DNA of 20,694 bases. Origin: a virus. Location: the IMG/VR virus record IMGVR_UViG_3300022562_000929, positions 1-20,694 of that record, one strand, 5' to 3'. The notes below the pieces were generated by a model that saw nothing but the letters and a program-made list of their open reading frames with translations, had not been told where the DNA came from and did not search any database. Of this stretch, positions 978-16,152 are shown one piece after another (the stretch's first letter is position 1; every line of letters begins with the position of its first letter). The position numbers were made by a program, and so were the translations under genes.

Positions 978-1307
978 ATGGCACTAAAAAAATCTACATA
1001 TATTAATGCCGAATTAGATTGGGCTGAACAACAATTAACTTCTTGGAAAGCTTATGTTGATGCAAATCCATTACATGAACTAAAGGATAGGATTGAGTGG
1101 AAACCTACAGCAAAAGGAGGTATGATTCCTATGGTGATAGCAAGTATAGAATCACAAGGAAAATTTGTACAGGATACAATGAAAAATTATTTAGCTCTTT
1201 TAGAACAAGTTGATAAACTTAGAGAAAAAGAAGAAGCAAAAGTTGAAGTGAGAGGAAAAGGAGAACTTGGTTCAATGGCAGAAGATTTCCTTAAAGCAAG
1301 AAAATGA
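978..1307 (+). CDS. Candidate small terminase subunit (position-based)
   Basis: A 109-aa, mostly helical protein. It has an N-terminal segment with WAEQQLTSWKAYVD, a central segment around residues 55-75, and a charged helix (LLEQVDKLREKEEAK) that could form a coiled coil. It ends in ATGA (1304-1307), overlapping the start of terL. Small terminase subunits are usually encoded directly before terL, are of similar or somewhat larger size, and oligomerise through helices. I see no clear helix-turn-helix, so the assignment rests on position and helical character only. It could instead be another small helper of packaging. Confidence 0.35.
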   Translation: MALKKSTYINAELDWAEQQLTSWKAYVDANPLHELKDRIEWKPTAKGGMIPMVIASIESQGKFVQDTMKNYLALLEQVDKLREKEEAKVEVRGKGELGSMAEDFLKARK

Positions 1308-3325
1308 AACTATATAATGTTGATTATAAGGATTGGTTTATAAACCAAAAACGTATTCCTGATAAAACATCAGAAGAATATAAACCATTCTTTGAATATC
1401 ATAAAGAATTATGTATAAATGGATGTATGATGGATGGTGTTTATATCAATCCATTTTTATATTGGCATTTAAACATATGGCACACAGAGGTTGATATAAT
1501 AGATGATTATGGGCGCATCAACCAAAAATATGCAAATCCTTATTTACGTGATAATGAATGGATTATTACAAATGAAATAGATAGGGCTCAAAAAGAAAGA
1601 AAAGGACTTGTCATACTTGGTATAAGACGTTTGGCAAAATCTGTAATAGAATCTTCATATATTGGACATGGTGCAACATTTGATCAAAACTCACAAAATA
1701 TTATAGCAGGACTAAATGCTGCAGATATAAAACTTATTACAGATAAAATAGATAAAGGGTTAAATTTTATTCCTGAAGCATGGAGATGGCAAAGAGTTGA
1801 GGACAACTGGAAAAATCAAGTGACTCTTGGAATAAAAACAAAAGCTGGAGAAAGAATACCGTTTTCACAAATTCTTATAAGGAACTTAGATGGTGGTAAT
1901 AATGAAGAAGCTATTGCAGGTACAAAACCTAGAAGACTTATAATTGATGAGATAGGAAAGGGATCTTTTCTTAGAGGATTACAAGCTGCCATTCCAGGAT
2001 TTACAACACCTTTTGGTTGGGGATGTTCTCCAATTCTTACAGGTACAGGTGGAGATATGAAAATGTTCATGGATGCAAAATCTTTAATGTTTGATGTAGA
2101 AAATTTTAATTTTCTTTCATATAAAAGTAAAGATGATACAAAGATTCATGGATTGTTCATTGGACATAAGTATAGAATGGAAGCCAAAGAAACATCATCT
2201 TTAGGAAAGTTTTTGGACAAACCAAAATCTTCTCCATTATATGATGTAGAAATGCTTGTGTCGAATGAAGAAAAAGCTACAGAGATTACAGATGGTAATT
2301 TAGAAAGACTTAAGAGAGCAGGAGATAGAATGGCATATCTCAAGGAAAAAATGTACTATCCAAAAGAAGTGGATGATATATTTTTAAATGAAGATACAAA
2401 TATATTTGATATAGAATCAGCAAAAAGACAAAAAGCAAGACTCCTATATCAAGAAAGAACAGGAACTCCTGTAGTGTTATATGATGATGGAGATGGTGTA
2501 AAACATCAATTTACAGATAAACTACCTATTACAAATTTTCCATTACGTAACACAGATGCAAAAGATGCTCCTGTTGTTATATATGAGTTTCCAATATCAA
2601 ACCCTCCATATGGACTCTACGTTGCAGGGGTGGATCCATATAGGCAGGGTAAGGCTGCATATAGTTCTTCTCTTGGTTCTGTATACATATATAAACGTAT
2701 GCATTCCATAACAGGAGAAAAATATCAAGATATGTTTGTAGCTAGTTATTCAGCAAGACCAGATAAAAAGGAAACTTGGGAAGAACAAGCTCGTCTATTG
2801 ATTAAATATTATAATGCTAGGACATTATGTGAAAATGATGAAATTTCCTTTATAGATTATATGATAGCTAAAGGAGATAGTCATTATCTGGAACGTCAAC
2901 CTTCATGGTTACAAGAAATAGTTCCAAATACAACAGTTAGACGTGATTTTGGCATACATAGGAGTGCTGAAAAGATAAGAAACTTTTTACATACATGTTT
3001 AAAGAAGTATACAGAGGAAGTGGTGCATATTGAAAAAAATGAAGAAGGAGAAGAAATTTCAAGACAAGTGGGAATGGCAAAAATATTTGATCCTGTCCTA
3101 TTGGAAGAAATTATACAATATAATGAAGATGGAAACTTTGATAGAATTATAGCAGCAGAATTAGCTATAGCATTAGCTATGAAAATGGACCCTATAATGG
3201 GAAAAATTGGAGGAGAAGAAGATGTTAGGGTTAAATCATTATATAATGGAAAAAAACAAAAAGGTAAGATGTTTACATCTTCAAATAAAATATTCAGTAA
3301 TAGAAAAAATAAATTATTTAGATAA
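1304..3325 (+). CDS. terL: Terminase large subunit (ATPase-nuclease DNA packaging motor)
   Basis: A 673-aa protein with the two-domain layout of phage large terminases. In the ATPase domain, a Walker A-like loop GIRRLAKS lies at 106-113, a Walker B RRLIIDE at 210-216 (Asp215, Glu216), and a coupling-motif candidate SPILTGTGG at 242-250. In the RNase H-like nuclease domain, AGVDPYRQG at 441-449 supplies the first acidic residue (Asp444), CENDE at 509-513 the second, and DRIIAAELA at 613-621 the third. Known role: it docks on the portal, pumps DNA into the prohead and cuts the concatemer. Ala replaces the usual Gly before Lys-Ser in Walker A, a variation seen in other terminases. It overlaps the previous gene by 4 nt and shares TAATG with the portal gene. 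Confidence 0.93.
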   Translation: MKLYNVDYKDWFINQKRIPDKTSEEYKPFFEYHKELCINGCMMDGVYINPFLYWHLNIWHTEVDIIDDYGRINQKYANPYLRDNEWIITNEIDRAQKERKGLVILGIRRLAKSVIESSYIGHGATFDQNSQNIIAGLNAADIKLITDKIDKGLNFIPEAWRWQRVEDNWKNQVTLGIKTKAGERIPFSQILIRNLDGGNNEEAIAGTKPRRLIIDEIGKGSFLRGLQAAIPGFTTPFGWGCSPILTGTGGDMKMFMDAKSLMFDVENFNFLSYKSKDDTKIHGLFIGHKYRMEAKETSSLGKFLDKPKSSPLYDVEMLVSNEEKATEITDGNLERLKRAGDRMAYLKEKMYYPKEVDDIFLNEDTNIFDIESAKRQKARLLYQERTGTPVVLYDDGDGVKHQFTDKLPITNFPLRNTDAKDAPVVIYEFPISNPPYGLYVAGVDPYRQGKAAYSSSLGSVYIYKRMHSITGEKYQDMFVASYSARPDKKETWEEQARLLIKYYNARTLCENDEISFIDYMIAKGDSHYLERQPSWLQEIVPNTTVRRDFGIHRSAEKIRNFLHTCLKKYTEEVVHIEKNEEGEEISRQVGMAKIFDPVLLEEIIQYNEDGNFDRIIAAELAIALAMKMDPIMGKIGGEEDVRVKSLYNGKKQKGKMFTSSNKIFSNRKNKLFR

Positions 3326-5910
3326 TGGCTATAATTAGATATACAAAAGATGCTACAATTAAGTATGCATATTTAAATATTTTTCCTGATCAATTCAAGA
3401 CAGAAAAACAAAAACAAAATGAGGGTTGGATAAAGAATACAATGGATTATTTTTCCAATAGGGCATATGCTGAATATATTAAAAATAAAAAAGGTTTTGT
3501 AAAAAACTATGATTATTTAAAAGGTATAATGACTCCAGAAGATTTCTATGAAGAGCCAGATGTAAAAAGTTTTATGGATATATTACAGGCAGATATGGAT
3601 TTGCCAAAATATGTACAAATGTATTCTATTATGACTACACCTATAAATGAACTTGTAGGAGAGGTTACAAAAAGACCAGATACATATAAAGTGAAAGCAT
3701 TTGATGATGATAGTAAGGCAGAAGAGCTTGAATTCAAAACAGAACTTTTACAACAATTCATTATACAACAAGCTAAAGAAAAAATATTACAAAAAGCTGC
3801 ATTGGAAGGAGAAGATCTTTCTGATGATGATGTTGAAAAATTAACATTGGATAAAGTTAAAGATGAACTTGATTCATATACATCTGTAGCTGAAAAATGG
3901 GCAAATCATATTCTTACAGCATGTAAAGCTGATTTTAATATAAAAGAAAAAAGTGAAGATACATTTAGAGATTTAACAATTTCTAATAGAGAATTCTATC
4001 ATATATATGAAGATAATTCAAAATTAGGATTTAATGTTGAGGTGGTTAATCCAAAAAATGAATGGCACCTCACCACTCCCGATAAGAAATATATTTCTGA
4101 TCCAACAGGAAGAATGCAAGGAGCTTATGCTGCTGGTACAGTACAAGTTATGGAACTTTCTGAAATAATAGAAAACATTCCTGATTTAACAAAAGAAGAA
4201 ATAGATCACTTAAGAACAGCATTAGAAGATTATGGACTTATTAATGTAAGAGAATCAAACCTTGGAAATGAAAGTGTATCTCCAGGAATAGATTCAATAA
4301 CATATGATACATATGATCCATTAGTGCTACAGACACGAATGATGATTGAATCTGAAATGAAAGAAAACAATGATGGGTTAAAAGATTTCTTAGGACTTAC
4401 ATCAAATGTTTCTTCTTTTGGATATAAATATGTTGTTGTAAAAGCTTATTGGGTGAGCAAAAAGAAAATAGGACAATTAACATATATAGATGAATTAGGT
4501 AATGAACAAACAATATTAGTTGATGAAACATATAAATCTGGAACTATTCCTACACAAATATCATTAAAATGGGGATGGATAAATCAATTAATGCAAGGAA
4601 CTAAAATTGGTCCAGATATATATCATGTCAAAAATTTTAATATGCTTCCATATATTCCAATTATAGGAACTATTCATGAGATTAAAAATACAGAACCTAA
4701 ATCACTGGTTGATTTAATGAAACCATTCCAAGCTATTTATAATGTATGCATGAACCAATTATGGGAACTATTACAAAAAGAAATTGGTAATGTTGGTGTA
4801 ATAAATATAAGAAGAGTTCCTGTTCCTAAAGATGGAGATGCTAAAGATGCATTGGAAATGTGGGAAGCTGAAGCCAGAGAGAAAGGTATTTTGTTTGATG
4901 ATGATAGTCCAGAAAATACAAAAGCTCCAATGAGCAATACATCTGTAGCCAGAAATATAGATTTGACAAGAACAAATGAAATACAATCAAGATATAACTT
5001 AGCACAACAAATTAAACTTGAATGTTGGGAATTAATTGGAATGTCAAAACAACGTATGGCTAAAGTTGCTGCCAGTGAAACAGCTACAGGAACAAATACA
5101 GCTATGCAACAAAGTTATTCACAAACAGAACCATTATTTGTTGCACATGAGTATGTATTAGGACAATTATATCAAGCTATTGTAGATACAGCATTATACA
5201 TAGAAAGTGCAAAACCAGAAAGTACACTATCATATATCACATCTGAAGGAGAAAGTGCATTTATAAAAGTTAATGGAGCAGATTTAAAATTACGTGATCT
5301 AAAAGTGTTCTTGACAAATAGACCAGAGGATCAACAAATGTTCAATGAACTTAGACAACTTTCTCAAGCTATCATTCAAAATGGTGGTACATTATATGAT
5401 GTTGTAGAATTGTATTCAATGAAATCTCAAAGAGAAATGAAGAAAACCTTTAAAGAACTTAGAGATAGACAAATTGCAATACAACAACAAGATATGCAAT
5501 TGAAACAACAACAATTGAAACAACAACAAGAAGTAGCACAAGCTCAATTGCAACAAGCTCAACAACAAAAACAAATGGAAATGGAGAATGATAATTATAA
5601 CAAACAACTTGATAGAATAAACAAAAAAGAAGTTGCTGTAATACAAGCTCTAAGAAATAATGAGAATGCAACAGCAGATGTTGATAATAATGGTGTAGCT
5701 GATGCTCTTGAAATAACAAATATGTCATTAGAACAAGCAAAAGCGAATAGAGAACATCAATTGAAAGTTTCTGAAATAAATTCTAAAAATCAATTAGAAG
5801 CTAAAAAACTTGAAATTGAAAAAGAGAAAAATCAAATAGCTCGTGAAAATATGAAAAATGATTTACAAGTGGCTAAAGAAAATGCTAAAGGAAGAAATAA
5901 AAATAAGTAA
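3325..5910 (+). CDS. Portal protein (crAss-like, long C-terminal helical extension)
   Basis: An 861-aa protein starting in TAATG shared with the terL stop. Position directly after terL, size and overall character fit the large portal proteins of crAss-like phages; the portal dodecamer forms the DNA channel at the capsid vertex. Residues 30-700 contain the body, including SETATGTNTAMQQSYSQTEP near 591, a typical portal stem/wing type segment. From about 705 the protein is a long coiled coil very rich in Gln and Lys. That helix is interrupted at 785-796 by DVDNNGVADALE, a calcium-loop-like motif, before a further charged helix to the end. P22-type portals also end in a long helical barrel, so the extension may project into the head. 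The family call is inference from context. Confidence 0.85.
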   Translation: MAIIRYTKDATIKYAYLNIFPDQFKTEKQKQNEGWIKNTMDYFSNRAYAEYIKNKKGFVKNYDYLKGIMTPEDFYEEPDVKSFMDILQADMDLPKYVQMYSIMTTPINELVGEVTKRPDTYKVKAFDDDSKAEELEFKTELLQQFIIQQAKEKILQKAALEGEDLSDDDVEKLTLDKVKDELDSYTSVAEKWANHILTACKADFNIKEKSEDTFRDLTISNREFYHIYEDNSKLGFNVEVVNPKNEWHLTTPDKKYISDPTGRMQGAYAAGTVQVMELSEIIENIPDLTKEEIDHLRTALEDYGLINVRESNLGNESVSPGIDSITYDTYDPLVLQTRMMIESEMKENNDGLKDFLGLTSNVSSFGYKYVVVKAYWVSKKKIGQLTYIDELGNEQTILVDETYKSGTIPTQISLKWGWINQLMQGTKIGPDIYHVKNFNMLPYIPIIGTIHEIKNTEPKSLVDLMKPFQAIYNVCMNQLWELLQKEIGNVGVINIRRVPVPKDGDAKDALEMWEAEAREKGILFDDDSPENTKAPMSNTSVARNIDLTRTNEIQSRYNLAQQIKLECWELIGMSKQRMAKVAASETATGTNTAMQQSYSQTEPLFVAHEYVLGQLYQAIVDTALYIESAKPESTLSYITSEGESAFIKVNGADLKLRDLKVFLTNRPEDQQMFNELRQLSQAIIQNGGTLYDVVELYSMKSQREMKKTFKELRDRQIAIQQQDMQLKQQQLKQQQEVAQAQLQQAQQQKQMEMENDNYNKQLDRINKKEVAVIQALRNNENATADVDNNGVADALEITNMSLEQAKANREHQLKVSEINSKNQLEAKKLEIEKEKNQIARENMKNDLQVAKENAKGRNKNK
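5677..5712 (+). other. EF-hand/dockerin-like Ca2+-binding loop in the portal C-terminus
   Basis: Codons 785-796 of the portal gene encode D-V-D-N-N-G-V-A-D-A-L-E. This has Asp at loop positions 1 and 3, Asn at 5, Gly at 6, Asp at 9 and Glu at 12, which matches the DxDxNGxxD...E pattern of calcium-binding loops. It lies between two long coiled-coil segments. Ion binding is inferred from pattern only. Confidence 0.55.
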
Positions 5911-6055
5911 AAAAGTTATTCAAATTTAAGTGAAAAAATAGTTAATGCTATATTATCAAAAAAAATGGAACTAAATAATAGATATTCCTTTGATATTATG
6001 AAGCTTTGATATACTTTTATACTAAAATAAACCAATATTTTATAAAAACTACATT
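5911..6055 (+). other. Leader region between portal and scaffold-like genes
   Basis: A 145-nt AT-rich gap with no supported gene. It holds the promoter candidate at 5990-6019 and ends in the leader element shared with 9113-9141. The octamer TTTGATAT occurs twice (5990-5997 and 6006-6013). I found no clear terminator hairpin after the portal stop, so the portal transcript may read through. Confidence 0.5.
5990..6019 (+). promoter_or_regulatory. Candidate Bacteroidota-type promoter upstream of the scaffold/capsid genes
   Basis: TTG at 5990-5992, a 19-nt spacer, then TACTTTTA at 6012-6019. The Bacteroidota housekeeping consensus is TTG, about 19 nt, TAnnTTTG, so spacing is ideal and the -7 box has one mismatch at its last base. 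Transcription would begin near 6025, about 30 nt before the ATG at 6056. AT-rich DNA gives chance matches, so this is moderate evidence. Confidence 0.45.
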
Positions 6056-6058
6056 ATG
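6028..6058 (+). repeat. Shared leader element, copy 1
   Basis: TAAACCAATATT (6028-6039), 8 nt, then ACTACATT directly followed by ATG (6048-6058). The same two blocks, 6 nt apart, precede the gene at 9139. It lies immediately downstream of the promoter candidate, so it would be the 5' untranslated leader of that transcript. Confidence 0.6.
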
Positions 6059-7354
6059 GAATCAAATTTAGATAACCCATTGAATAATTTTAGTATTCAA
6101 GAAACAATGGATATGGGAGCAGGAGATTCTCAATTAATAAATGATTTAATGGCTCCAGAAACATCAACTTCTAATCCAGATGATATCGAGGAAATTGTAA
6201 AAACAGTTGACTCAGATGATGTTGAAGAAAAAGAAAAATCAATTAAAGTTAAGGAAATATCTCCAAAAATCAAATCTAAACCTCAAAAAACAGAAGAAGG
6301 AAATGAGGAAGATGAAGAAGAGGAGTCTTCAAATCCTTTAGAAGATTTTTTACTTGGAGGAGATGATGAAGAAGAGGAAGAGGAAGATGATAATAGTTCT
6401 ATAGAAAAAGAACAGGAATCTGACGAAGATGATGATGATGATGATGATAAAGGAGATGATGAAAATCAATTTACAGCATTATCAAACGATTTATTCAAAT
6501 TAGGGGTTTTTACAAAAGAAGAAGATGAAGATGAAGATGTTAAAATAACATCTGCTGAAGAATTCAGGGATAGATTTATTGCTGAAAAGAAAAAAGGAGC
6601 AATTGAAGTTGTAAATAATTTTATTGGTCAGTTCGGTGAAGATTATCAAAAAGCATTTGATGCCATATATGTAAAAGGTGTAAATCCAAAAGAATATTTT
6701 AACGCATTCAATAACATATCAAATTTCTCTGAATTAGATCTATCTGAGGAAAAAAATCAAGAATCTGTATTAAGACAAGCTTTATCAGACCAAGGTTTTG
6801 AAGATGAAGATGTTGAAACAGAAATTGAAAGATTAAAAAATTATGGTGATTTAGAAAGTGTAGCAAATAAACACCATAAAGTGCTAATTAAAAAAGAAGC
6901 AGCCAAATTACAACAAATGGAACTTCAAGCACAACAACAATTACAACAAAAAGCTGCATTTAAGAATCAATATATTGGTAATGTACAAAACATCATCCAA
7001 GATAAGCTAAAAACAAAAGAGTTTGATGGAATCCCTTTAAACCCTAAATTAGCAAACGAACTACAAGACTTTTTATTAGTGGATAAGTATAAAACTGTTT
7101 CAGGAGAAACTTTAACAGATTTTGATAAAACCATTTTAGATTTGAAAAAACCTGAAAATCATGAATTAAAAGTGAAATTTGGTTTATTGCTAAAAATATT
7201 GGAAAAGGATCCAACACTATCAACAATTCAAAAAAGCGGTGTTACAAAAGAATCTAAACAACTTTTTGGAAATCTTGCAAAACAAGTAACCACTGATAAA
7301 ACGTTAAAAAAACAAAGACAACAAAAACAACAACCTAAATCGTGGTTTCAATAA
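6056..7354 (+). CDS. Acidic scaffold-like head assembly protein
   Basis: A 432-aa protein between portal and major capsid protein, the usual place of a scaffolding protein. Residues 80-165 are extremely acidic, with runs such as EEDEEEEE (84-91), DDEEEEEEDD (103-112) and DDDDDDDD around 125-131. Residues 170-270 look folded and helical. Residues 275-310 form a Gln-rich coiled coil (KLQQMELQAQQQLQQK), and the C-terminus is basic (KKQRQQKQQPKSWFQ). An acidic, coiled-coil protein with a basic capsid-binding tail is typical of scaffolds, although no catalytic protease motif is visible. Assignment is by position and composition, and it could instead be an internal head protein. The start follows the leader element shared with 9139. 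Confidence 0.6.
   Translation: MESNLDNPLNNFSIQETMDMGAGDSQLINDLMAPETSTSNPDDIEEIVKTVDSDDVEEKEKSIKVKEISPKIKSKPQKTEEGNEEDEEEESSNPLEDFLLGGDDEEEEEEDDNSSIEKEQESDEDDDDDDDKGDDENQFTALSNDLFKLGVFTKEEDEDEDVKITSAEEFRDRFIAEKKKGAIEVVNNFIGQFGEDYQKAFDAIYVKGVNPKEYFNAFNNISNFSELDLSEEKNQESVLRQALSDQGFEDEDVETEIERLKNYGDLESVANKHHKVLIKKEAAKLQQMELQAQQQLQQKAAFKNQYIGNVQNIIQDKLKTKEFDGIPLNPKLANELQDFLLVDKYKTVSGETLTDFDKTILDLKKPENHELKVKFGLLLKILEKDPTLSTIQKSGVTKESKQLFGNLAKQVTTDKTLKKQRQQKQQPKSWFQ
6300..6465 (+). repeat. Low-complexity GAA/GAT/GAG tract (acidic coding repeat)
   Basis: Purine-rich trinucleotide runs inside the scaffold-like gene encode poly-Glu and poly-Asp, densest at 6361-6391 and 6421-6450 where GAT repeats. 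Strand slippage would add or remove whole codons without breaking the frame. Confidence 0.7.
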
Positions 7355-7380: not shown

Positions 7381-8934
7381 ATGGCAACTCAAACAATTCC
7401 AGGATTAACTGGCTTTACCTATGCTCGTGTAGCCTCTATGGACAAACGAGCAGTAGGAAAACTTACTGATTCTAATCACTTAGAATCTTTTCATTCCACT
7501 GAGCCTGCTGACTATGATAAAAAAATCATAAGTTTGTACACGCAGAGCTCATTGTATAGTAATGATTTTCTAGACATGATTAACAAATCCACTCCCTATT
7601 ATATAGATAATAATAGTGATGCTTGGAAATGGAAAATCTCAGTACCTTACAAATTTCCAAAAATCATCGATATACCAGATGCTACTACAGCATTAACAAA
7701 ACCTGGTGTCGATGGTCAAGAATTCTCATTAGTATTAGATACAAATGAATTTTCTAAAAATGCTATCATATCAATCGGTTCTCGTCAATATGGTCCAAGA
7801 GCATATGTAGTGAAGGATCCAGTTCCTTATAGTACAGGATATTTATATTCATTTACATTAGTGAGTGATAATCCTACAGTTGATTTCTTGAGTTCAACCT
7901 TCTTACAAGTAGGTATTGAATTAGAATTAGTTGATGCTGCAATTGGAGAATTTGATCAAGATTTACTTGGATTGCCTAGATTAGGTGAAGAAATCACAAT
8001 GTTTGAATCTCTTGGATCTGCATACGGTTTTGAACATGCAATCACTGCTTGGGCTGATGATAGAACTATGAGAGATGCTTCTGGCAAACCTCTTGATATT
8101 TTGGTATATGCTCCTCAACGTAGGAACCAATTACCTCTTACACGCAACGATGTTAAATGGGAGCCATTTGTAGAATATATGATGCGTAAAGCAATGTTAG
8201 AACTTAAGGTTAAACGAATGATTTGGGGTAAACCTGGAACAGTTAAAACTAATGGTTCTAAACAAGAAGTTAAACGTACTTCTGCTGGTGCATATCACAG
8301 AATGCGTAACAACGGTAACTTAGTACAATATAATAGAGGTGAATTCTCTGCAAACTTGATTCGTTCAGTATTTGGAGATTTATTCTATCGTAGAGTGGAT
8401 GTTAAAGATAGACGAGTTAAAATGTATACAAATGAAGCTGGATTCGATGTATTCCAACAAGCTTTGAAAAATGATGCATTAAACTCTGGATTAACCTTCA
8501 TGGCTGATTCTGGAAATAGATATCTACAAGGAGAAGGACAGAACATCACTTATAATTTTGCTTTTGATTCAATGGTAACAAGAGAAACTGGTAAAGTGGA
8601 ACTTGTACATTTGAAAGAACTTGATTTACCACAATCTAATTTAGAATTTGGACAAAACAAAAAATCTACACCTGTATTTATGGTGTTTGATGTTTCTCCA
8701 ATGTCTGATGGTTCAATGGTGAACAACATTCGTGAAGTGAGAATGAAAGGTGCTCCTTCTATGACTTGGGGATATATTGATGGACGTAGACATCACTTAG
8801 GATTTGCTAAATCTCAAGGAATGAGTTCTGCTAACAAATTCCCAGGATACCAAATTTGGATGGAAGATAGATGTGACATTTTTATTGAGGATTTATCTAG
8901 AACTGTGTTAATTGAAGAAATTCCACAATTCTAA
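7381..8934 (+). CDS. Major capsid protein (crAss-like, HK97-fold family expected)
   Basis: A 517-aa protein in the crAss-type capsid position, two genes after the portal. The start gives MATQTIPGLTGF, and the C-terminal part holds segments I associate with crAss-type capsid proteins, such as GAPSMTWGYIDGRRHHLG near 458-475 and the EEIPQF end. Codon use is unlike its neighbours: by hand count about 14 of 29 Arg codons are CGN, against about 4 of 28 in the portal gene, where AGA dominates. That fits selection for very high expression, as for a protein present in hundreds of copies. The leader ACAAATGGC is shared with the 381-aa gene at 10857. The fold is inferred from family and position, since it cannot be read from motifs. 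Confidence 0.85.
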   Translation: MATQTIPGLTGFTYARVASMDKRAVGKLTDSNHLESFHSTEPADYDKKIISLYTQSSLYSNDFLDMINKSTPYYIDNNSDAWKWKISVPYKFPKIIDIPDATTALTKPGVDGQEFSLVLDTNEFSKNAIISIGSRQYGPRAYVVKDPVPYSTGYLYSFTLVSDNPTVDFLSSTFLQVGIELELVDAAIGEFDQDLLGLPRLGEEITMFESLGSAYGFEHAITAWADDRTMRDASGKPLDILVYAPQRRNQLPLTRNDVKWEPFVEYMMRKAMLELKVKRMIWGKPGTVKTNGSKQEVKRTSAGAYHRMRNNGNLVQYNRGEFSANLIRSVFGDLFYRRVDVKDRRVKMYTNEAGFDVFQQALKNDALNSGLTFMADSGNRYLQGEGQNITYNFAFDSMVTRETGKVELVHLKELDLPQSNLEFGQNKKSTPVFMVFDVSPMSDGSMVNNIREVRMKGAPSMTWGYIDGRRHHLGFAKSQGMSSANKFPGYQIWMEDRCDIFIEDLSRTVLIEEIPQF

Positions 8935-9138
8935 CAAATAAACAGTAGTTGCTACGCCAAGAAGAATAATAACTCAAATGCTAAGTAGTTGTAGGCGTAC
9001 CAGAGCAACTGATATACCGAGAAGAATTTTCCCTCCTTTCCCTCCAAAGGAGGATTCTTCTCAAATAGAGTGTTGAGAAAGTCATATCCTTCGATGGAAA
9101 CACTCTACAAAGTAAACCAATATTAAATTAACTACATT
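8935..9138 (+). ncRNA. Highly structured spacer RNA after the capsid gene (three helices)
   Basis: This 204-nt gap has no supported gene but three consecutive strong helices. P1: 8947-8958 pairs with 8994-9010, as AGTTGCT/AGCAACT plus ACGCC/GGCGT with a 5-nt bulge. P2: GAGAAGAAT (9019-9027) pairs with ATTCTTCTC (9054-9062), enclosing CCTCCTTT (9032-9039) paired with AAAGGAGG (9046-9053). P3: TAGAGTGTT (9066-9074) pairs with AACACTCTA (9099-9107), with a small inner TCC/GGA stem. No U-tract follows any helix, so these are not ordinary terminators. GC content is visibly higher than in flanking gaps. It may be a structured mRNA leader, a processing or stabilising element for the abundant capsid message, or a separate small RNA. 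Confidence 0.6.
9019..9062 (+). promoter_or_regulatory. Hairpin pairing a perfect Shine-Dalgarno with an anti-Shine-Dalgarno
   Basis: The upper stem pairs CCTCCTTT (9032-9039) with AAAGGAGG (9046-9053) across a 6-nt pyrimidine loop, on top of a 9-bp lower stem. AAAGGAGG is a full Shine-Dalgarno. CCTCCTTT matches the 3' tail of Bacteroidota 16S rRNA as I recall it. No start codon lies at usable distance. A regulatory function is inference. Confidence 0.5.
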
Positions 9139-9141
9139 ATG
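9113..9141 (+). repeat. Shared leader element, copy 2
   Basis: TAAACCAATATT (9113-9124), 6 nt, then ACTACATT (9131-9138) directly followed by ATG at 9139. It matches the leader before 6056. Here it starts 5 nt after the last helix of the structured spacer and no promoter-like box was found just upstream. Confidence 0.6.
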
Positions 9142-10107
9142 GGTAAGATAGGAAAGATCTCTACGATCAAAAGAGAATATTCAAGTTCTCAATTGCAAAC
9201 TATGCAAAGTGAATTAGCTAAAAAAGGAATGACAAGAGTACCTGGTACAGGAGTGTTTAAATATCCTTATAAAGAGCTAGATGGAAAGTATAGAACAGGT
9301 TTGGATTCAGAAGCTTCATACATTAAGCGAATACAAGATCCAACAGAACAACAATTAGAAATTGAAAGAGTTACAAAACTAAGGAAAAAATTAGAAAATG
9401 CTCTTGGTGGTATAGATTTAGGACCTCGTTCAAAATTTTGGAATCATGGATTATCAACATCAACAGAAGATCAAGCACATGTACAACCTGTTAAATTAAG
9501 AGATGGAGATAATTATTTTGATTTTTCAATTCCTTTTCAAGAATTAGCATTTTCATGGTTAAGAGTACATCCTACAATTGCTTCTTCATATCAAGCATGG
9601 GAAAGAGGAGAATATCCTGCAGATACACAATTTTATGTTGTAGATGATGAAATTGAAAATGCAATAGTTTATCATAAAAAACAACTTATTAATAAGGCAG
9701 TTATTAAATTTGATAAAATGACTCCTGAGAAAAAGAGAAAAGTTGCAAGATTGTTAGGACTTCCTATAACTGATAATACAAAAGAAGAAGTTGTGTATAA
9801 CTCTGTAGATACATTATTAAAACAATCTGAATTTAAATCAGGTTCTAATAAAGGACAAAACCCAATCACTGTATTTAATAAATTTGCAGATATGAAGGAA
9901 GATTTACTTCATATTAAAGATTTGATAAAACAAGCTATAGAACATTCAATATATAGAGTGAAACCAAGTGGTTCAATATATGAAGGAGAATATGAAATAG
10001 GAAAAAATGAAGATGAATTAGTTAAGTTCTTAATTGATGATGATCATCAAGATGAACTATTAACATTAGAAGGAAAATTAAAAACTAAAAAAATAGCTAG
10101 TACATGA
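9139..10107 (+). CDS. Conserved crAss-like virion protein of unknown role
   Basis: A 322-aa, mainly helical and charged protein without a recognisable catalytic motif. Visible features are a basic N-terminus (MGKIGKISTIKREY), a segment with PYKELDGKYRTGLD near 45-58, a central region with FQELAFSWLRVHP (134-146) and an acidic/basic C-terminal end. Crassvirales genomes generally carry one or two conserved uncharacterised genes directly after the capsid gene, and this one fits by position and size. It overlaps the next gene by ATGA (10104-10107), pointing to translational coupling with the ring-type protein. It could be an internal cargo or neck component, but the sequence does not decide. Confidence 0.6.
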   Translation: MGKIGKISTIKREYSSSQLQTMQSELAKKGMTRVPGTGVFKYPYKELDGKYRTGLDSEASYIKRIQDPTEQQLEIERVTKLRKKLENALGGIDLGPRSKFWNHGLSTSTEDQAHVQPVKLRDGDNYFDFSIPFQELAFSWLRVHPTIASSYQAWERGEYPADTQFYVVDDEIENAIVYHKKQLINKAVIKFDKMTPEKKRKVARLLGLPITDNTKEEVVYNSVDTLLKQSEFKSGSNKGQNPITVFNKFADMKEDLLHIKDLIKQAIEHSIYRVKPSGSIYEGEYEIGKNEDELVKFLIDDDHQDELLTLEGKLKTKKIAST

Positions 10108-14714: not shown

Positions 14715-14930
14715 ATGACAGGAGTTATAACAATATCAACAATAGGAACAGATTCTGGACCATTTAATATATATTCAGATGTAGATGGATATGTTTCTCC
14801 TTTTGCATTAAATATAAGTAGAGCAGAATTATTAACTGGATATATAACAAATTCAATTCCTGATGGTACACAACAAGTTAGAGTTGTTTCAACAGGAACA
14901 TGTTTAAATTCATTAAATATAATAGGAAAT
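14715..14930 (+). repeat. Duplicated N-terminal domain, copy 2
   Basis: Encodes residues 1-72 of the propeller protein, the second copy of the domain found at 14201-14416. DNA identity is patchy while the protein pattern is retained, so the duplication is not recent. Confidence 0.75.
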
Positions 14931-16025
14931 TTAATATTATGTTATAAAATACTTCCAGAGTTAACATATTATTATACAGATCTTATTTTTAAAGAAAATA
15001 AAACTTATCTATATGGAAATATAACAAGTTATGAAAATGGTATAGATACAGTTTCTTCTAATGGTATATTGGTGTTAAATGAAGATTTAACAAAAAATGA
15101 TATACTTGCTACAGGAACAGGATTTAATTCTACACTATATGTAGGAACTTCATTAATTGAACAATCAGATGGTAAATTAATTGCTACGGGAGTGTTCACA
15201 TCATATAATGGAACTTCTGCTAATAGAATAATTAGATTAAATCCAAATGGAGAGGTAGACACAACATTTGTATATGGGACAGGATTTAATAATTTTACAC
15301 AGCATCCAGCAATAGATTCATTGGGAAGAATAATTGTCCCAGGATTGTTCACATCATATAATGGATCAAGTAGTAATAGAATAGTAAGACTATTGACAGA
15401 TGGAACTAAAGATACAACTTTTTCAATAGGTAGTGGATTTAATAACACTGTTTTGGATATATTAATAAATCCTGACGATTCTATGATTATAGTAGGATAT
15501 TTTAATACATATAATGGAATAGGAGGATTAGGAGGAATTATAAAATTAGATTCGACTGGAGCTAGAGATTTAAGTTTTGTTTCTGGTACAGGATTTAATC
15601 CTTATTTACAAAATAATTATCGTTGTATTGCAAGAATTCCAGGAGAAACCTCATTTTATGTAGGAGGATATTTTACTTCTTATAATGGAACAAGTGCTAA
15701 TTATATTATAAAATTAAATGAAGATGGTACAGTTGATGGAAGTTTTACATATGGTACAGGATTTAATGGAAATCTATTTATGATAAAAGTTATATGGGAA
15801 AATAAATTATTAATATATGGAAATAATTTTACAGACTATAATGGAACAACGAGTTATAATAGTATTATATTAAATGCTGATGGTAGTGTATTTCTTAATT
15901 TTTTAACAAATGCCTACAATCAACCTTTTCCAATAGGAAATAAATTATATGGAGCTGTATATGGAGATTGTTTAGAATTAATTTATGAATACACAACAAC
16001 AACAACTACTACTACATCTCCATAA
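14715..16025 (+). CDS. Putative host-contact protein: shared N-terminal domain plus six-bladed propeller
   Basis: A 436-aa protein. Residues 1-71 repeat the N-terminal domain of the preceding protein. Residues about 97-402 consist of six repeats of about 50 residues with the pattern G-x-F-T-S-Y-N-G-x(3)-N-x-I-(I/V)-(R/K)-L-x(3)-G-x(2)-D-x(2)-F-x-x-G-x-G-F-N. The FTSYNG-like sites start near 102, 161, 212, 263, 320 and 372. This is the delta-60/DUF5122 repeat (PF17164, TIGR02608), which folds as beta-propeller blades, so one six-bladed propeller is expected. The end is a run of eight Thr then SP. A propeller on a virion-docking domain fits a receptor- or glycan-binding appendage; the ligand cannot be inferred. 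The gene is followed by a terminator. Confidence 0.75.
   Translation: MTGVITISTIGTDSGPFNIYSDVDGYVSPFALNISRAELLTGYITNSIPDGTQQVRVVSTGTCLNSLNIIGNLILCYKILPELTYYYTDLIFKENKTYLYGNITSYENGIDTVSSNGILVLNEDLTKNDILATGTGFNSTLYVGTSLIEQSDGKLIATGVFTSYNGTSANRIIRLNPNGEVDTTFVYGTGFNNFTQHPAIDSLGRIIVPGLFTSYNGSSSNRIVRLLTDGTKDTTFSIGSGFNNTVLDILINPDDSMIIVGYFNTYNGIGGLGGIIKLDSTGARDLSFVSGTGFNPYLQNNYRCIARIPGETSFYVGGYFTSYNGTSANYIIKLNEDGTVDGSFTYGTGFNGNLFMIKVIWENKLLIYGNNFTDYNGTTSYNSIILNADGSVFLNFLTNAYNQPFPIGNKLYGAVYGDCLELIYEYTTTTTTTTSP
15193..15365 (+). repeat. Identical 20-nt direct repeats in adjacent propeller blades
   Basis: TGTTCACATCATATAATGGA occurs at 15193-15212 and again at 15346-15365, exactly 153 nt (51 codons, one blade) apart. 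Recombination between the copies would delete or add one blade in frame. Confidence 0.8.
15989..16019 (+). repeat. Poly-Thr codon tract ending the propeller gene
   Basis: ACA/ACT repeats encode eight Thr before the final Ser-Pro. The tract begins right after the predicted propeller. Confidence 0.75.
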
Positions 16026-16037
16026 TATAAAAATATA

Positions 16038-16106
16038 AAAATCTTGTTTTGTTGGTTTTACAAGATTTTGCTCCCAGAGATAAATCATCTCTGGGAGTTT
16101 TTATTT
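16038..16106 (+). terminator. Tandem hairpins with rho-independent terminator after the fibre block
   Basis: First hairpin: AAAATCTTGT (16038-16047) with ACAAGATTTT (16060-16069). Second: CTCCCAGAGAT (16071-16081) with ATCTCTGGGAG (16087-16097), an 11-bp perfect stem with a 5-nt loop, followed by TTTTTATTTT. The second is a textbook intrinsic terminator. A promoter candidate follows about 50 nt downstream, so this is a transcription-unit boundary. Confidence 0.9.
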
Positions 16107-16152
16107 TATAATCAAAATAGTTATACTAAATAACAATTTTAATTAAATAAAT

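Follow-up and report, generated by a model that had tools for sequence, protein, structure and literature searches.

The window analysed here is the whole 20,694-base IMG/VR virus record IMGVR_UViG_3300022562_000929, part of the genome of a tailed phage with kinship to the crAss-like phages. No DNA similarity match was found among phage records. The following genes frame the locus:

1304-3325: terminase
3325-5910: portal
6056-7354: scaffold-position gene, a label taken from gene order only
7381..8934, + strand: major capsid protein gene, directly 5' of the spacer (PHROG 11589 major head protein, E 1.2e-33)
9139..10107, + strand: next gene 3' of the spacer, probably a virion gene (PHROG 16383, unknown function)

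Further downstream, several genes between 10857 and 16025 have threonine-rich tails (TTTTTTTT) at their ends and short gaps between them; they perhaps form a tail or appendage module.

At 204 nt, the spacer that separates the capsid gene from gene 9139 (8935-9138) is the longest intergenic gap in the window. A preliminary description of this DNA had set it against gaps of only a few bases; the spacer does stand out in length, but two other gaps are sizeable (5911-6055, 145 nt; 16026-16152, 127 nt). Its folding energy is -48.6 kcal/mol, compared with -30.7 +/- 4.1 kcal/mol for shuffled sequences (z -4.37; 0/200 as good), and both strands fold better than chance. The fold consists of three adjacent domains, in agreement with the three neighbouring helical structures of the preliminary description. 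P3 is a three-way junction and no simple hairpin. The parts of the fold are:

8946..9011, + strand: P1, the 5' hairpin domain, AGTTGC..GCAACT and TACGCC..GGCGTA, from the fold and the spacers of relatives
9019..9062, + strand: P2, a long hairpin, GAGAAGAAU..AUUCUUCUC, with top strands C-rich on the 5' side and G-rich on the 3' side, from the fold and relatives
9066..9107, + strand: P3, the three-way junction, a core supported by covariation and by covariance model R1
9066..9072, + strand: P3a 5' strand of the closing helix, acceptor-like, pairing with 9101-9107
9074..9084, + strand: P3b, the inner arm, here UGA(GAAAG)UCA, read from the sequence and longer in relatives
9087..9098, + strand: P3c, a T-arm-like stem with the hexaloop UUCGAU at 9090-9095

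The domains differ in how they vary among relatives. P1 is variable and absent from some. In seven relatives, its loop shares CC(A/G)TAAGAAC or a close variant on stems of varying sequence, a second conserved loop motif. P2 is present in nearly all relatives, with its outer stem 95% paired. In at least six of them the P2 loop contains CUCCC(U/A)CC, which could pair with the GGGAGG strand that also pairs with the 5' arm; P2 is possibly a two-state hairpin in several members, with two partners competing for the GGAGGG strand. A role of the CCUCC loop of P2 as an anti-Shine-Dalgarno sequence was dropped, as the loop is absent from many relatives. P3b has 3 bp in the window (9074-9084), compared with about 7-9 bp in relatives. 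Four relatives contain an extra hairpin between P2 and P3, with AGTGC..GCACT or ACTTAGT..ACTAAGT as its closing helix, which is possibly a degenerate second P3.

A first set of relatives comprised 80 IMG/VR loci with capsid proteins about 90% identical or more. In all 80, a structured spacer, very different in sequence and the same in plan, separates the capsid gene from the gene-9139 homologue. Likewise, the spacers behind capsids of 88-93% protein identity are divergent in sequence and keep the fold. Covariance model R1, built from nine P3s with the window left out, finds the window P3 at 9065-9108 (E 7.8e-7). The same model detects P3 in 62 of the 80 relatives, each time in the capsid-downstream spacer; one weak match outside the spacer (E 0.67) was discarded as spurious. 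Most of the relatives that it misses are from a group in which P3 is shortened and a U-tract hairpin replaces P2. The larger collection of 330 loci, which includes repeat contigs, gave 171 unique spacers, six of them from a distant family.

Base-pairing in P3 is maintained through extensive sequence change. Across 47 distinct sequences, 93.7% of cells are paired and 19 of the 21 pairs have changed on both sides; the covariation score in this structure-fitted alignment is 0.579, compared with 0.192 for shuffles and 0.05-0.12 for slid controls. As the alignment had been fitted to the structure, the test was redone on a sequence-only alignment, with the structure itself drawn from the same sequences: 94.1% of cells are paired, and 0/500 shuffles score as high on any measure. 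For well-varying pairs, parsimony on a tree of the two flanking genes (109 spacers) requires at least 10 changes on each side of P3a pair 5 and 10 of the pair, and at least 22 and 20 changes on the sides of P3c pair 3 and 22 of the pair. These changes are therefore coupled and recurrent. The covariance check on relatives that the preliminary description had called for was thus passed decisively, and compensatory base changes exceed chance, as expected of a conserved structured RNA. In P3, G.U pairs outnumber A.C mismatches by 66 to 20 on the + strand, which favours an RNA in the gene direction. On the coding strand, the spacer element forms an RNA fold that is conserved and covaries.

These data bear on the idea that the fold works as DNA, for example as a cruciform or an integration or homing site, and carries no RNA signal. 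Several lineages have HNH-like endonuclease genes or tRNAs inserted next to P3, which is consistent with such a role. However, most of these inserts lie on the 3' side of P3, in the conserved leader; the sequence beneath the fold is free to diverge, and a homing site would need it to be conserved; and the excess of G.U over A.C speaks for RNA. We consider a DNA-level role very improbable.

P3 is confined to one gene junction. Among 20 records scanned whole, 16 contain one significant copy each and the four without are from the short-P3 group. A context-blind pattern search of IMG/VR returned 86 loci, all in the capsid-downstream spacer. The capsid gene is upstream in 81/81 loci with enough sequence and the next gene downstream in 85, and the loci not showing both neighbours are contig ends. 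No record examined has more than one significant P3, and its site is invariably the junction of the capsid gene with the gene that follows. The pattern had no match in a collection of genomes from 84,980 bacterial and archaeal species, and the P3 model had none in seven distant phage records. The spacers of distant relatives (capsid 24-29% identity) are 49-103 nt long and hold at most simple hairpins, several of them followed by T-rich tracts. No capsid families of 29%-87% identity were retrieved.

The 3' end of the spacer is shared with a second site in the window:

5989..6018, + strand: predicted Bacteroidota-type promoter TTTG-N19-TACTTTT, with a predicted start near 6024
6029..6055, + strand: leader AAACCAA...ACTACATT behind this promoter, before the scaffold-position gene
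9114..9138, + strand: the same leader, AAACCAA...ACTACATT, directly before the start codon of the next gene

This repetition of the leader was missed in the preliminary description, as was the tRNA-like junction discussed below. AACCA occurs in 164/165 post-capsid spacers of relatives. In the records examined, the full AAACCAA...ACTACAT form is limited to the two genes flanking the scaffold-capsid pair, and the leader was rejected as a genome-wide signal on this basis. The promoter pattern follows the Bacteroidota consensus TTTG/TAnnTTTG (PMC6847099). It precedes the scaffold-position gene in 49/49 relatives, compared with 2.7% of control tiles, and four of the 49 drop out under the stricter form TAHHTTT. 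The A+T-rich window has 13 matches to the pattern against 7 expected by chance, so the weight of the prediction rests on its conservation. The region 5911-6055 and the same place in the 49 relatives are highly conserved, with TTAATGCTATATTAT followed by TTTG-N19-TAnnTTT and the AAACCAA leader; the region is late-promoter-like, and the upstream TTAATGCTATATTAT block may be a regulator site.

The post-capsid spacer lacks the promoter pattern (0/151 spacers), yet has the same start-codon leader as the promoter-bearing scaffold-position gene. The dimensions of the two leaders are also similar. Before the scaffold-position gene, AACCA lies 2-6 nt past the predicted transcription start, giving a predicted leader of 23-34 nt; after the capsid gene, it is mostly 4-8 nt past the base following P3, with a leader mostly of 25-36 nt. 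Cleavage at the 3' edge of P3 would consequently yield a leader similar to the one on a primary transcript. The leader could also be conserved for translation alone.

The absence of the promoter pattern also weakens the case for a free small RNA, released from the capsid 3' region and acting in trans. The fold is stable and compact with conserved edges, features that such an RNA would share. However, the element is strictly tied to one gene junction, and there is little conserved unpaired sequence beyond the P3 loops, since P1 is dispensable and the P2 top is free to change. A function in trans is accordingly improbable.

A further possibility is that P3 controls translation of gene 9139, being bound by a phage or host protein, such as a virion protein, that represses or times translation. 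In nearly every spacer, 25-36 nt separate the end of P3 from the start codon, and the conserved hexaloop, the bulged G and the CAGA/UCUG base suggest a specific partner. Three observations run counter to this. The scaffold-position gene uses the same leader without P3; HNH-like inserts separate P3 from gene 9139 and bring another AACCA leader; and the predicted fold of the window leaves the start site clear of P3. We regard translational control as doubtful. ORFs read by eye as HNH-like apparently lie between P3 and gene 9139 in eleven relatives. In two of these (L028, L229), they take over the original leader and its ATGGG(T/C)AA start, and provide gene 9139 with its second AACCA leader.

P2 offers a different account of the spacer, namely partial termination. 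P2 would act as a terminator or attenuator behind the capsid gene that lowers downstream transcription, with P3 and P1 assisting or modulating. We judge this unlikely, but it is the main rival because a U-tract, terminator-like hairpin occupies the place of P2 in about 15/151 related spacers (one group). The distant relatives, with at most simple hairpins and several T-rich tracts, point the same way. The preliminary description had seen no U-tract; this is correct for the whole P2 stem, but the P2 top followed by AUUCUUCUC is flagged by a lax terminator scan. However, the G+C-rich stem is followed in most members by a CUCUUCUC-like tract with 3-5 U in 8. This tract drifts to C while still paired with the purine-rich 5' strand of P2, GAGAAGAG, which a U-tract terminator would not tolerate. 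A canonical U-tract terminator is found elsewhere in the same phage (16070-16108, behind gene 14715-16025). In addition, attenuation would leave the far better conserved P3 unexplained.

The geometry of P3 resembles that of the acceptor stem and T-arm of a tRNA. In tRNAs, 5+7 or 5+8 nt separate the T-loop from the acceptor end. The P3 hexaloop, UU[CU][AG]N[UG], was parsed in 145/171 unique spacers. Its distance to the outer end of P3a is 12 or 13 nt in 125 of these (12 nt in the window), and most of the others are evidently parsed wrongly or mismatched at the helix end. The length of the P3b domain meanwhile ranges from 12 to about 31 nt. In a more divergent relative (L186, capsid 87%), GAGA-UUCGAU-UCUC is kept on an unrelated P3a. 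P3 therefore looks like an acceptor stem and T-arm with a UUCRNU loop, the two stems together spanning about 12 bp up to the T-like loop; the distance is measured on the secondary structure, and coaxial stacking is a prediction. The conserved unpaired bases of P3 are those of the hexaloop and a bulged G; at the foot of P3a, CAGA/UCUG hardly varies.

Genuine tRNAs are found at this site. In one relative (L252), an Rfam tRNA (45.7 bits; gathering score 29) sits in the place of P3, between P2 and the leader; ARAGORN makes no call for this tRNA and its T-loop looks degenerate. A second relative (L286), with a capsid 99% identical and the same flanks, has a three-armed element at that position. A close relative of the window phage (L001) and one other (L026) have a tRNA-Met directly 3' of P3. 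These tRNA insertions could be incidental, because HNH-like genes enter the same spot.

P3 is not a tRNA in the strict sense. Its loop differs from the T-loop consensus UUCRANY closed by G53-C61, having six bases (UUCRNU) and mostly a C-G closing pair, and the A equivalent to A58 is only about 77% conserved in P3c. P3 has neither a D-arm nor a CCA end. No tRNA was called in 8935-9138, and the P3s of relatives do not match the four-arm cloverleaf of the Rfam tRNA model (RF00005). An Rfam scan of the window at E<=1 placed no family in the spacer; with Rfam 15, in nine and six relatives, only real tRNA inserts reached gathering scores, and no known ribozyme family was found in the scans of window and relatives. 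The suggestion that the spacer matches no named RNA family is borne out.

On this basis, we interpret the spacer RNA as a cis-acting intercistronic element that would process the transcript, or mark a 3'-end/5'-end boundary, between the capsid mRNA and the next virion cistron. We give this reading a probability of roughly 0.55. It is favoured by the covariation, the strict position, the tRNA-like geometry, the replacement by a tRNA, the leader match and the precedent of RNase P. The preliminary description had listed protection or processing of the capsid mRNA, attenuation and a free small RNA; the first fits best, and attenuation is a live rival.

A specific form of this reading can be outlined. 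Transcripts would start before the scaffold-position gene, traverse the capsid gene and enter the spacer, where P3 would be recognised as a tRNA-like acceptor/T-arm. Cuts would then fall at its edges, by RNase P at the 5' edge and by RNase Z or a similar enzyme at the 3' edge. The capsid mRNA would retain P1 and P2 as protective 3' hairpins, and the downstream mRNA would receive a leader of ~24-35 nt resembling that of a primary transcript. As a result, the abundances of the capsid and minor virion proteins could be set separately. Cleavage of P3 by tRNA nucleases is the more tentative step, to which we assign somewhat less than even odds. Slightly more tentative again is the full proposal that P3 is a minimal tRNA mimic, evolved by the phage, that draws the host's tRNA-processing nucleases to the capsid transcript for cleavage at one gene junction. 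The departures of P3c from a T-arm, the lack of a D-arm and CCA, and the lack of an Rfam tRNA match count against tRNA nucleases. Likewise, CAGA/UCUG at the foot of P3a is nearly constant, which points to a sequence-specific partner that would be superfluous for RNase P.

There are known systems with which P3 may be compared. RNase P is reported to process tRNA-like structures and some mRNAs; its substrates include a polycistronic mRNA, the phage T4 gene 32 mRNA and the 3' end of TYMV (PMC11143913). P3 shares with these substrates an acceptor/T-arm-like helix inside an mRNA, with ~12 nt from loop to end, and its site holds real tRNAs in relatives. It differs in its hexaloop, C-G closing pair and lack of CCA, in being a predicted substrate, and in being conserved at a single gene junction throughout a phage family. 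Canonical tRNA (RF00005) has the same distance from T-loop to acceptor end and the same UUCR start of the loop, and replaces P3 in L252; in contrast, P3 is three-armed, has no anticodon or D arm and does not match the tRNA model.

Other parallels concern position. Intrinsic terminators occur behind phage capsid genes. They resemble the spacer RNA as hairpins behind a highly expressed message, and are present in one group of relatives, whereas most members have no U-tract and have the additional conserved junction. A 2017 study of 224 candidate structured RNAs reportedly described a Mu-gpT-DE RNA motif, of unknown function, directly 3' of a phage major head gene. The likeness is that of a conserved RNA structure directly downstream of such a gene; the motif belongs to other phages, and the spacer RNA differs as a three-way junction with tRNA-like geometry. 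If Mu-gpT-DE is in Rfam, permissive thresholds yielded no match to it, either in the window or in relatives. The openly licensed literature gave no account of an RNA behind the crAss-like capsid gene, nor a named family.

The covariance data are sufficient to define a new RNA family that can be used for annotation. Tailed phages need far more capsid than minor virion proteins, from genes that are transcribed in series. A conserved RNA at the capsid junction, sampled here at ~300 loci, is a concrete candidate for setting the ratio of capsid to minor virion protein. Cleavage of P3 by tRNA nucleases, if it occurs, would represent tRNA mimicry as mRNA punctuation in a DNA phage, achieved without a tRNA.
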